A stretch of DNA of 64,000 bases, from NCBI RefSeq assembly GCF_030068505.1, contig NZ_JAQOSO010000096.1, positions 62,001 to 126,000 on the forward strand. Reading direction: 5' to 3'. The notes beneath the pieces were generated by a model. It saw nothing but the letters and a program-made list of their open reading frames with translations, did not search any database and was not told the origin of the DNA. Shown piece after piece: positions 52,441 to 58,735 of the stretch (positions within the stretch are counted from its first letter, which is position 1; each line of letters begins with the position of its first letter). The translations under genes and the position numbers were made by a program. The stretch comes from Roseofilum capinflatum BLCC-M114. GTDB lineage: Bacteria; Cyanobacteriota; Cyanobacteriia; Cyanobacteriales; Desertifilaceae.

Positions 52441-54078
52441 CTATGGAATGATTTGCGCTCGTTCGACTAATTCGGGAAAGAGGGCGTTAAATTCTTGTTC
52501 GGCTTGCTTTTGAGCGAGTATAGTCATGAGGGTGGTATAGGAAAAGAAACAGATTCCGGCTAAGTTGCGATCGCGCACTTCTCTTAAATGCTGTTTAATT
52601 TGCGCTAGGGATGTATTCTGAGTTGATACACCGAGACTGACGGGAATTTTATGTTTAGCTAGGGCGATCGCCGGATGGTCGAAGGAAGGTTGGGAATCTG
52701 TGTAAAGAATCAGTTCTTCAATCACGTTATCGCTTGCCCATAGTTGCGGATCTTGGAGCGTATTGTTGGCCTGAAGATCGGCCACAAAGCTGAGAATACA
52801 ATAGGGTTTCTCTTTTTTGATGCGGGCAGAAATTTGTTTGAGCAAGTCCGTGAGGCGATCGCGTCTCCAGTTTACCCAGGCAGCATCTTGGGGATTACTG
52901 GGGGGGCGTTTTCCCGGATAATCTTGCTGATAGAGTTGGGTGGTTAAGGCATCATAGCCTAATTCAACCGGTGGACAAAAAGAGGAGTCGAGTTGAATGC
53001 CTTCTATTTCATGCTGACTGACCATTTCTCCCACTAAATCTAGAATAAATTGCTGGACTTCAGGATGAAAGGGATTCAGCCAAAGATAACTTGATTCTCC
53101 AGCTCCAAATTGGGAACTGCCATCTTGACGGGTGGCGATCCAATGATGGCGGTTTTTCAGTAGGGGAGAATTGACGGGGAGTTTCAGTCCCCCTTGCAAC
53201 CAGCCAATAATGCCGATCCGCTTGCGGCGAGAGGCTTGTAGGGCTTCGGTTAAGGGATTGCTATAGAGGGGACGTAAGCCAGTAAGCTGTTGCAGGAGGG
53301 TGCTGGGGTAGGGGGTTTGACCTTGATTCCAGAGGCTGGGATAGAGGGTGTTGAAATTAAACTGGGATAAATAATCGATCGCCGCTTCTGTGTTGTTGGG
53401 AAAGAAGCGTAAGTTGGGAGTCAGTTGCGTTAACCCGACTCCCCGCAGTTCTCCCGTCAGTTGCACGGGGGGAGCAATGGTAACTTTGGCAATATATTGA
53501 TCGGGAACGGGGGAAACACTATTTTCGGTTTGTCGCGCTTGGGCGATCATGGAGACAATTTCGGCACGAGTGGCGATCGCATTGGGACGCAGTTGAGTCA
53601 CGTCCGGATAGTTAACGACTAGGGAGTGTTCAGCCGCAGCAGCGATCGGCGATCGGGCATATTCGGGAATCTGATCCGCATCCTCAAACGTCTCGTTTAA
53701 AGTCATCTCCACCAAGTTTTGCGGCTCATACTTCAAGCCATTACTCAAAGCCAGTAGTGCTTGCAGACGAGTCAGCCGATCCGTGGGCTGAAATCGCTGA
53801 TTAGGATAACCTCGCAGAAAGCCCGATTCATAGGCGTTGCGAATTACCCCATAAGCCCAATAGGAAGGAGGCACATCCTTAAATTGCATCCCCCCGATTT
53901 GACCCGTTTTCGGATAATGGGGAAATGCACGGGAAAGTAAGGCCGCAAATTCCGCCCGGTTCATGGGAGCATCCGGCTTAAATTGCCCATTGAGATAGCC
54001 ACTGACGATCTTTTGATCCGCCAGTTGTTCAACTACAGCTTGGGCCCAATGGTTGGTAATATCCGTGAATTTCGCCAT
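52441..54078 (-). CDS. SLH-domain protein with GHL10-like (probably impaired) glycosidase domain
   Basis: A 545-residue protein starting MAKFTDITNHWAQAVVEQL (ATG 54078). Residues 1-190 are three SLH modules (FTDITNHWAQ, FKDVPPSYWAYGVI, FEDADQIPEYA), which bind cell-wall-linked polymers. Residues 210-545 are a GHL10 domain homologous to 9311-10483. Compared with that paralogue, the acidic motif QLDDHF is QLDSSF, and WFEYG is WLQGG, so one conserved Asp and one Glu are lost. It may bind glycans without cutting them. No signal peptide is visible at this start, which is odd for an SLH protein and leaves the true N-terminus open. Confidence 0.8.
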   Translation of the reverse strand: MAKFTDITNHWAQAVVEQLADQKIVSGYLNGQFKPDAPMNRAEFAALLSRAFPHYPKTGQIGGMQFKDVPPSYWAYGVIRNAYESGFLRGYPNQRFQPTDRLTRLQALLALSNGLKYEPQNLVEMTLNETFEDADQIPEYARSPIAAAAEHSLVVNYPDVTQLRPNAIATRAEIVSMIAQARQTENSVSPVPDQYIAKVTIAPPVQLTGELRGVGLTQLTPNLRFFPNNTEAAIDYLSQFNFNTLYPSLWNQGQTPYPSTLLQQLTGLRPLYSNPLTEALQASRRKRIGIIGWLQGGLKLPVNSPLLKNRHHWIATRQDGSSQFGAGESSYLWLNPFHPEVQQFILDLVGEMVSQHEIEGIQLDSSFCPPVELGYDALTTQLYQQDYPGKRPPSNPQDAAWVNWRRDRLTDLLKQISARIKKEKPYCILSFVADLQANNTLQDPQLWASDNVIEELILYTDSQPSFDHPAIALAKHKIPVSLGVSTQNTSLAQIKQHLREVRDRNLAGICFFSYTTLMTILAQKQAEQEFNALFPELVERAQIIP

Positions 54079-54171
54079 AAGCGCTTGCACTCAGATTAAG
54101 GGTAATGTAACAGCCAATCATTATATTGGTAATCAGATACTTGCACTTGCGTAAAGTTTAGTTGCAATCTC

Positions 54172-54201
54172 TTGATCTGACCCCAATAACTCTTTTATAG
54201 T
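54172..54201 (+). promoter_or_regulatory. Promoter of RNA copy 1
   Basis: TTGATC (54172-54177) and TATAGT (54196-54201) with an 18-base spacer form a sigma70-type promoter. The expected start is near 54208. Confidence 0.75.
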
Positions 54202-54207
54202 GAAAAC

Positions 54208-54482
54208 GTGAAGCAAGTAAAGCTTCATTGGCAGATGAACAGCCACTTTGTACAAAACCCAGTAAAACGTTAAGAGGTAAATCACTGACTAACTGTTATC
54301 TGTCTCAGGATAGCACGGCAGCACCCCTACTGAAACTTGAAACTTCCTAAACTAGAGAAGCGGGGAGGAAAATCAACCAGTATTCACACTCATTTTGTTG
54401 AAGAACGTTGGACTCCAAATAGGCTCAAATAATAAAAGGAAGTCGCTCAGGAAGTAAGTCATCCGGGTGCTGCTGTCGTTTT
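54208..54482 (+). ncRNA. Candidate structured RNA, copy 1
   Basis: Predicted from the promoter to the end of the closing stem. The 5' hairpin is GAAGC-AAGTAAA-GCTTC. A long-range closing stem pairs GCAGCACCC (54318-54326) with GGGTGCTGC (54465-54473), followed by TGTCGTTTT. Inside it lies CAACC...GTTG, weaker here than in the other copies. I know no family with this layout. Evidence is the promoter conservation and co-varying stem, not expression data. Confidence 0.6.
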
Positions 54483-54534
54483 AAAGGTAAGATTGGGGAG
54501 AAAAATTAATTCAGTAAAGTTTGATTACAATCCC

Positions 54535-54563
54535 TTGATCGAACCCCAAAAAGTGTTTATAGT
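54535..54563 (+). promoter_or_regulatory. Promoter of RNA copy 2
   Basis: TTGATC (54535-54540) and TATAGT (54558-54563) with a 17-base spacer. The expected start is near 54570. Confidence 0.8.
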
Positions 54564-54569
54564 AAAAGC

Positions 54570-54844
54570 ATGAAGCAAGTAAAGCTTCATTGGCAGATGA
54601 ACAGCCACTTTGTACACAACCGAGTAAAAAGTTAAGAGGTAAATCACTGATCAACTGTTATCTGTCGCAAGACAAAACGACAGCACCCCCACTGAAACTT
54701 GAAACTTCCTAAACTAGAGAAGCAGGGAGGAAAACCAACCAGTATTCACACTCATTTTGTTGAAGAAGGTTGGACTCCAGATAGGCTCAAATAATAAAAG
54801 GAAGTCGCTCAGGAAGTAAGTCATCCGGGTGCTGTTGTCGTTTT
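54570..54844 (+). ncRNA. Candidate structured RNA, copy 2
   Basis: Same layout as copy 1. The closing stem is ACAGCACCC (54680-54688) with GGGTGCTGT (54827-54835): the terminal pair is A-U where copy 1 has G-C, a compensated change. A second, outer pairing AAAACG/CGTTTT extends the stem. An inner stem CCAACC/GGTTGG is perfect. The unit ends in CGTTTTAAA, a weak intrinsic terminator. Confidence 0.65.
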
Positions 54845-54896
54845 AAAGGTAAGATTGGGGAGAAAAATTAATTCAGTAAAGTTTAGTTACAATCCC

Positions 54897-54925
54897 TTGA
54901 TCGAACTGAAAAAAGTGTTTATAGT
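54897..54925 (+). promoter_or_regulatory. Promoter of RNA copy 3
   Basis: TTGATC (54897-54902) and TATAGT (54920-54925) with a 17-base spacer. The spacer sequence differs from copy 2 while the hexamers are kept. Confidence 0.8.
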
Positions 54926-54931
54926 AAGAAC

Positions 54932-55206
54932 ATGAAGCAAGTAAAGCTTCATTGGCAGATGAACAGCCACTTTGTACAAAACCCAGTAAAACGTTAAGAG
55001 GTAAATCACTGACTAACTGTTATCTGTCGCAAGACAAAACGACAGCACCCCCACTGAAACTTGAAACTTCCTAAACTAGAGAAGCAGGGAGGAAAACCAA
55101 CCAGTATTCACACTCATTTTGTTGAAGAAGGTTGGACTCCAGATAGGCTCAAATAATAAAAGGAAGTCGCTCAGGAAGTAAGTCATCCGGGTGCTGTTGT
55201 CGTTTT
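54932..55206 (+). ncRNA. Candidate structured RNA, copy 3
   Basis: Nearly identical to copy 2 in the 3' half and to copy 1 in parts of the 5' half. The closing stem is ACAGCACCC (55042-55050) with GGGTGCTGT (55189-55197), and the inner stem CCAACC/GGTTGG is perfect. Repeat homology ends right after CGTTTTAAA, which marks the likely RNA 3' end. Confidence 0.65.
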
Positions 55207-55344
55207 AAATCACGCAAGTGGTAAAGAATTCTTCAGTTTATTTTCCACCCATTTATCAGAGATGCCGCTTATCATGGAATAGGGTATAGCATTGTATTTA
55301 ATCCCGAAAGGTGCAGCCCATCATTGGTAATTCTGAAGAAAATC

Positions 55345-56871
55345 ATGATCGCGTGGTTAGCTAATCAGAAAATTGGCAAAAAACTGGCCATACTAGGAGT
55401 GATGGTCACTGCACTCATTCTCATGAATATTGTGGGGATGATAGAAATTGCCAAAACCGGGTACTTTCAATTCTTAGAGCGCGAGCATATTGAATTTGCC
55501 CTGTTGATGCAGATTAAACTCGATCAAATACAAGAAACACTGCACCATACGGATAAGCTTGTAAACACATCCCTTGTGACAGCCAACTCCACAGAACGCT
55601 TAGAAATGGGCTTACAAACCCTCCTAGCCAACACCTTGGAATTGCCCATAGCCTGTCTTGATGCCGTTAATGATATTGAAAAATCTGCCTTCACGCTCTT
55701 AGGTTTCGGCGAAGTGTTTACGCTCTGCGAAAATGATATTGTCGATCTCAATGAAGCCAATGAGATCGTTGAGAACTATGTGAATCAGCGTATTTCCTCT
55801 GCATTCTTTGTCGATCGCTTCCAAGACTATCTCAATACCATTCAAAAGAATTCTCGCCGATTCTCCATCCTGGTTCCAGAAGCCCGGAATGTGGTGCAAA
55901 GTCTGGTTTTGATCGCCACCACCATCCTGTCTTTTATCGTTTTGGCCCTGTTTTTGCTCATTTCAAATCTGTTGAGAACCCCAATTGTGGCCATGTCCGC
56001 CCGGATTAAAGATATTGCTAGGGGTGAAGGAGATTTAACCCGACGGCTGAAGATTACCTCCCATGATGAAATCGGAGAGGTAGCCCATTGGTTCAACCTC
56101 TTCATTGAAAGGCTCCAGGGGGTGATGATCGACGTGAAGAGTGTGACCGGCCATGTTGCTGACGGTAGTTATGGCATGAGTGCTAGGGCAGCAGCCATGT
56201 CGGAAGGCGCAAATTCACAGGCAGCCGCAGCCCAACAAGTTTCCTCTTCCATGAAGGAGATCACGGCCACCATTCGTAAAAACACTGAAAATGCCCAGCA
56301 AACGGAGCAGTTGGCCCTCCAGGCCGCTGCCGATGCTACAGACACTGGGCAAGCAGTTGCCGAGGCGGTGCTGGCAATGCAGCAAATTGCTCAAAAAATT
56401 TCGATGATCGAGGATATTACTCGCCAAACCCGTATGCTCTCTTTAAATGCCAGCATTGAGGCAGTACAGGCTCAGGTCAGTGGCAAAGGATTTGCCGTGG
56501 TAGCCTCAGAGGTGCGAGCCTTGGCTGAACGAAGCCAAGCAGCAGCCACAGAGATTACGAATCTCGCCCAATCCTCTGTGAGGGTTGCAGAAAATGCGGG
56601 TGCAATGCTGCGGCGACTGGTTCCGGATATTCAAAAAACTGCTGAGTTAGTCCAAGAAATTAGTGCAGTGAGCAAAGAACAAAATACCAGTACCGAACAA
56701 ATTAACTGGGCTATTGAGCAATTAAACCGTATCACCCAGCAAAATGCTCTTACCTCGAAAGAATTAGCCACCATCGCCAAAGACCTTTCCACCCAATCTG
56801 AAGAACTCCAGCAGACGATTGCCTTTTTTAACACTGAGGGCATTACTCAACAGCGTTATTATCGCCAGTAA
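55345..56871 (+). CDS. Methyl-accepting chemotaxis protein
   Basis: A 508-residue receptor starting [18 protein letters not shown] (ATG 55345; a TTG seven codons earlier is in frame). Helix 1 ([20 protein letters not shown]) is followed by a periplasmic helical sensor of about 145 residues. Helix 2 ([21 protein letters not shown]) comes next, then a HAMP domain ([25 protein letters not shown]) and a signalling domain with the hairpin tip [42 protein letters not shown]. It would control gliding/phototaxis motility or another CheA pathway. No C-terminal pentapeptide and no che genes are nearby. The sensor domain is unlike any I can name. Confidence 0.9.
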
Positions 56872-58585: not shown

Positions 58586-58735
58586 TTTGTAAGCGCCTTG
58601 CGCTGTTATAGCGCAAGGCGCTAGGCAATAGGCATTATAGCGTGAAAAATGGTTTTCCTATTACACCTATTACCTATTACCTATTACCTATTACCCATTA
58701 CCTAATTACCCATTACCGCGCGAAGCGCTGTATCT
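58586..58735. repeat. MITE-like element with TATTACC tandem tract
   Basis: It begins with GCGCCTTGCGCTGTTATAGC and its inverted echo GCGCAAGGCGCT, continues with many TATTACC/CATTACC units and ends GCGCGAAGCGCTGTAT. It is the same class as 40575-40701 and lies in the gap between the symporter gene and the following membrane protein gene. Confidence 0.6.

Follow-up and report, generated by a model that had tools for sequence, protein, structure and literature searches.

The window analysed here is a 64,000-nt stretch of the Roseofilum capinflatum BLCC-M114 genome. A tandem array lies in it between a divergently transcribed gene for an S-layer-homology and glycosyl hydrolase-like 10 protein and a chemoreceptor gene on the strand of the array. 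The layout is as follows:

52441..54090, minus strand: upstream neighbour, divergent, S-layer-homology and glycosyl hydrolase-like 10 protein (Pfam)
54151..54513, plus strand: tandem unit copy 1, whole transcription unit and spacer (Tandem Repeats Finder, genome search)
54514..54875, plus strand: tandem unit copy 2 (Tandem Repeats Finder, genome search)
54876..55210, plus strand: tandem unit copy 3, truncated, without the spacer past the RNA end (Tandem Repeats Finder, genome search)
54151..54166 (copy 1), 54514-54529 (copy 2), 54876-54891 (copy 3), plus strand: promoter box GTAAAGTTTAGTTGCA
54172..54201 (copy 1), 54535-54563 (copy 2), 54897-54925 (copy 3), plus strand: -35 TTGATC and -10 TATAGT
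54208..54486, plus strand: predicted PmgR1-family RNA copy 1, with the start placed by the -10 and the end past the U-tract
54570..54848, plus strand: predicted PmgR1-family RNA copy 2
54932..55210, plus strand: predicted PmgR1-family RNA copy 3
55345..56871, plus strand: downstream neighbour, HAMP and MCP chemoreceptor, likely start ATG 55345 (Pfam, ORF)

An earlier reading made from the sequence only had described a non-coding unit of about 362 bp present three times. Tandem Repeats Finder recovered this unit as 2.9 copies at 54151-55209 (period 362 bp, 93% matches), and no plus-strand ORF of 50 aa or more was found within the array. The first base of the array unit is the start of box GTAAAGTTTAGTTGCA, and copy 3 stops after CGTTTTAAA, the point at which the repeat had been said to end. 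As the unit spans GTAAAGTTTAGTTGCA to CGTTTTAAA, each unit corresponds to one whole transcription unit, containing the promoter box, -35, -10, RNA and U-tract. The predicted RNA is about 278 nt long in each copy; over its length identity is 98% between copies 2 and 3, and 94-95% between copy 1 and either of them. The S-layer-homology/glycosyl hydrolase-like 10 gene is the neighbour in the congeners too. Elsewhere in the window, at 58657-58717, units of 7 and 14 bp (CCTATTACCCATTA) form a short tandem array that spans 53-61 bp.

The promoter elements TTGATC and TATAGT were present as initially described, at 54172, 54535 and 54897, with spacers of 18, 17 and 17 nt in copies 1, 2 and 3. A generic promoter consensus scan yielded three matches versus 2.6 by chance, and therefore it is conservation, and not the scan, that constitutes the promoter evidence. 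A -10-like TAa.tTAatA is kept family-wide, and a 16-bp box, GTAAA(G/C)TTT(A/G)GTT(T/G)CA, is found about 56 nt 5' of the first hairpin of the RNA (P1) in at least 93 of 145 non-redundant promoters. Within the 64-kb window GTAAAGTTTAGTTGCA has only three matches, all of them in the array (0.03 expected). By its location, typical of an activator site just before the -35, the box appears activator-like. Comparison of the upstream box with the HLR1 consensus KTTACAWWNNKTTACAWW, the RpaB site, showed a fitting spacing and half-sites without clear match, the mean best score being 11.4 versus 11.0 for shuffles.

The consensus structure was taken from 105 diverse homologues aligned with MAFFT (alignment A3). 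It consists of P1 (GAAGC/GCUUC), P2 (GRCAGAU/AUCUGUC with an inner AACAGC/GCUGUU) and the closing stem P3 (AACANCACCC/GGGUGNUGUU), inside which P4, P5 and P6 are located. In copy 1 these elements occupy the following positions, with percentages of paired cells that are flattered, because the structure was derived from A3 itself:

54210..54226, plus strand: P1 hairpin GAAGC/GCTTC (99.4% of cells paired, 105 sequences)
54230..54304, plus strand: P2 GGCAGAT/ATCTGTC (99.9% of cells paired, nearly invariant)
54315..54476, plus strand: closing stem P3, 54315-54326 with 54465-54476, then CGTTTTAAA (96% of cells paired, flattered also by the choice of 3' ends described below)
54336..54450, plus strand: P4 within P3, CTTGA.ACTTCCT with AGGAAGT..TCAG (13 of 13 pairs changed on both sides; alignment helices 6 and 7)
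54363..54416, plus strand: apical stems P5 (GGGAG/CTCC) and P6 (TCAACC/CGTTGG) (alignment helices 8 and 9)

The 5' hairpin GAAGC/GCTTC, first noticed by eye, is found in all three copies. The long-range closing stem is present as noted, its length being 12 bp and not the 9 bp originally given; copy 1 has ACGGCAGCACCC/GGGTGCTGCTGT there, and copies 2 and 3 share ACGACAGCACCC/GGGTGCTGTTGT. The proposed pair swap between the copies is real (G-C to A-U), and the G-U intermediate of the same pair occurs in the second copy of a congener (L024). Copies 2 and 3 indeed form the inner stem CCAACC/GGTTGG perfectly; copy 1 has a single mismatch in it. The fold of copy 3 (-74.4 kcal/mol, z = -3.5) was better than those of all 200 dinucleotide shuffles.

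Standard pairs made up 92.2% of 5,493 cells over the 53 pairs of A3, a value flattered by the derivation of the structure from the same alignment, as compared with 85.8% in shuffles and 39-49% in registers slid by 1-3 columns. Double changes are stronger evidence for the fold than the percentage paired: both-sided change was observed in 36 of the 53 pairs, and double-change cells numbered 387 versus 115 in shuffles, with none of 500 shuffles reaching 387. All 11 counted pairs of P3 were changed on both sides among the 105 homologues, with columns 174/383, for example, being A-U in 51 and G-C in 39, P3 figures that are also flattered because the 3' ends of the homologues were chosen by P3 complementarity; P4-P6 were not used in that choice. 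The loop of P2 contains near-invariant unpaired bases, AGAGGU(A)AAA in A3, and in copy 1 the near-invariant unpaired AGAGGTAAA at 54273-54281 is enclosed by P2. Conserved pairing among homologues, which had been put forward as a check on the RNA, was thus found in 105 homologues with heavy double change. That the fold is conserved and the RNA is real and structured is well supported. The suggestion that three genes for a structured RNA of about 275 nt stand in tandem also gains support, from over 100 homologues in which compensatory change is heavy and from the unit being a whole transcription unit.

For the search of cyanobacterial genomes, likewise proposed earlier, a covariance model (R1) of the 5' domain with 98 positions was used, the 3' domain being assessed on alignment A3. 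The RNA gene family was found widely in cyanobacteria: R1 matched 165 of 245 genomes in the order and 111 of 291 in the class, mostly with one copy each, and 84 of 386 in the phylum draw, mostly once per genome; among the matches listed in the latter, all fall within the class. R1 matched none of the smallest genomes among those listed for the class, in which the RNA may have been lost or have diverged. Named genomes with the RNA pattern include Nostoc, Fischerella, Calothrix, Scytonema, Leptolyngbya, Acaryochloris, Nodosilinea, Crocosphaera, Spirulina, Planktothricoides, Richelia and others, and by these matches the RNA appears traceable through most of the large-genome cyanobacterial groups sampled, usually as a single copy. 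It should be added that the diatom symbiont Richelia intracellularis, the genome of which is reduced, retains the RNA (L147). A contig titled Endozoicomonas cretensis also matches the RNA pattern (L142), perhaps owing to cyanobacterial contamination of the assembly.

Since most genomes hold a single copy, tandem copies are a side feature of the family. By blastn, four congeners carry a tandem duplicate of the unit at the same site and a fifth has it once; matches in other families were weaker. A fourth, divergent copy of the RNA is located elsewhere in the R. capinflatum genome (L004, contig G000:C92). Two to three tandem copies with periods of about 311-590 bp were also seen in further lineages (L016/L037, L030/L031, L114, L100, L051 and L081). 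Copies within a genome are closer to each other than to their counterparts elsewhere (L024, L028, L027 and congeners), the sister species G001 and G002 being an exception. This pattern suggests concerted evolution of the tandem copies, with gene conversion or repeated rounds of local duplication as possible causes.

The Infernal search against Rfam, another of the checks envisaged in the sequence-only reading, pointed to no known family at the array: Rfam 15 gave no match there at gathering score or at E-values up to 5, nor any match at gathering score in 13 divergent member loci. 6S RNA (ssaA, RF00013), which likewise is abundant and structured in cyanobacteria, falls into a similar size class and has an independent gene, was rejected as a candidate, having no match in the array; the true 6S RNA is located elsewhere in the genome (G000:C81). 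NsiR1 is similarly produced from a tandem direct-repeat array in cyanobacteria (PMC3610870), however, it comes from 12 short repeats upstream of hetF, whereas the array RNA is a folded molecule of 278 nt that usually occurs in single copy. The Yfr2 family, compared via Rfam alone and without match, shares a multi-copy, widely conserved character among cyanobacteria, but is far shorter, at about 106 nt in Nodularia. In the sections consulted of conserved-sRNA papers on Nostoc and on unicellular model strains (PMC4734099, PMC2662882), no match could be identified.

The structured RNA is, nevertheless, already known by name in one model genus, as PmgR1 of Synechocystis, and the initial description of the unit as unrecognised is not upheld, its positional identity being PmgR1/Ncr0700. 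In three Synechocystis genomes (L222, L223 and L224) the RNA and hoxE are head-to-head, with 407-420 nt between the RNA start and the hoxE start codon, and beside hoxE no further conserved RNA was seen in this genus; a fourth genome (G015) has the RNA located elsewhere. PmgR1 is said, in the 2016 work of de Porcellinis and colleagues, to be widely conserved among cyanobacteria. The order hoxE(-), RNA(+), hypD(+) in genome G501 equals the arrangement reported for Synechocystis PCC 6714, in which the hox genes cluster with hypD, this not being the case in 6803 (PMC4060947). The hox operon of 6803 is designated TU1714, and its start is adjoined by the TSS of TU1715 (PMC11368403). TU1715 corresponds to Ncr0700, which in 6714 is a free-standing unit, TU3047 (PMC5386190), and Ncr0700 is PmgR1 according to the title of de Porcellinis et al. 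2016 (doi 10.1093/pcp/pcw128), as it stands in a reference list (PMC12475003). Ncr0690 (PsrR1) is encoded in the fabF-hoxH spacer, at the opposite end of the hox operon (PMC2662882, PMC12850537).

Because the Synechocystis RNA sits beside hoxE where TU1715, that is Ncr0700, starts, we are nearly sure that the RNA is PmgR1/Ncr0700 and that the array represents a tandem triplicate of pmgR1. We further consider it very probable that the locus comprises three tandem PmgR1 (Ncr0700) genes, each a complete transcription unit for a large structured cyanobacterial riboregulator. As is predicted for R. capinflatum, PmgR1/Ncr0700 of Synechocystis is a free-standing sRNA, and it is beside hoxE that the RNA family lies in Synechocystis genomes. 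The two organisms differ in copy number, one in Synechocystis as compared with three tandem and one dispersed in R. capinflatum, and in location, the array being beside a chemoreceptor gene instead of hoxE.

This assignment stems from position and not from a match to the 6803 record, and the published 6803/6714 comparison of Ncr0700 counts against it, with an overlap of 195 nt, shorter than the 285-nt element (PMC5386190). One could thus suppose that a different, still unnamed RNA came to lie beside hoxE in Synechocystis by chance and that PmgR1 is something else. We judge this very unlikely, given that TU1715, which equals Ncr0700, has its start directly at that of hox, that the RNA is on the correct strand beside hoxE in all three of the above genomes and that a second conserved RNA was not seen there. 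Amplification in tandem of a mobile element or transposon end would account for the tandem copies and for the presence of more than one locus in some genomes, but it has next to no probability: most genomes carry one copy, compensatory changes keep the RNA fold, the neighbours are conserved and plasmid and phage collections gave no match. A transposon end, which the sequence-only reading had named as the identification that would overturn it, is ruled out by the single-copy conservation.

The surroundings of the RNA in other genomes raise another alternative. A conserved cyanobacterial gene for a 256-aa protein with the motif M[AS]IIAL[KR]AWYL..YEPI follows the RNA on the same strand in 74 of 170 testable loci (median gap 71 nt), and the fourth R. 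capinflatum copy also precedes it (L004 1833-2603, G000:C92). The protein had no Pfam or NCBIfam family, and its predicted fold, of moderate confidence, showed weak alpha/beta matches only. As the fourth copy sits at the locus of this gene, the C92 site looks ancestral and the array in the window would be derived. The RNA might accordingly be read as a cis-acting, riboswitch-like 5' leader of the M[AS]IIAL[KR]AWYL gene that moved away in some lineages. We find this very improbable, since 96 of the 170 loci are without the gene within 1.5 kb, tandem copies distant from it are conserved, every copy has its own promoter and terminator-like end, and the Synechocystis RNA is a separate, very abundant transcript.

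With the array RNA assigned to PmgR1, data on the latter become relevant. PmgR1 is the most abundant transcript of strain 6714 and is maximal in darkness (PMC5386190), and within 30 min after a shift to higher light its level in Synechocystis shows a log2 change of -4.1, PsrR1 responding in the opposite direction (PMC12850537). It sediments next to RNase P RNA and, according to the title of the 2016 study, is required for photomixotrophic growth and glycogen regulation (PMC12475003); furthermore, it acts downstream of PmgA (PMC6166021). In the literature consulted we found no molecular target of PmgR1.

In the model that we propose, each copy would comprise an activator-like box, -35, -10 and an RNA of about 278 nt ending in the closing stem and then the U-tract, which together probably form the terminator. 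By analogy with Synechocystis, the array RNA may accumulate in darkness or low light, drop in high light and act in trans on carbon storage and mixotrophic metabolism. The tandem copies would raise the dose of the regulator, and gene conversion or repeated local duplication would keep them alike. Our best guess is a folded, probably protein-bound particle presenting the unpaired AGAGGUAAA of the P2 loop, instead of a simple antisense RNA. In its broadest form, the idea is that PmgR1 is a core cyanobacterial ribonucleoprotein RNA ranking with 6S RNA, tmRNA and RNase P RNA, working via its fold and the unpaired AGAGGUAAA (GAGGU being complementary to the 16S anti-Shine-Dalgarno) and not via antisense pairing, with some lineages raising its dose by tandem amplification; this we offer as a tentative and rather doubtful proposal.

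As far as the literature consulted shows, what appears new is the covariation-backed structure of this RNA, its breadth, the 16-bp promoter box and the recurrent tandem amplification. PmgR1 is without an Rfam family, and alignment A3 and model R1 supply a covariation-tested structure for it. The invariant bases and the shared promoter box are the first targets for mutation, and genomes in which the tandem copy number is one, two or three represent a natural dose series.
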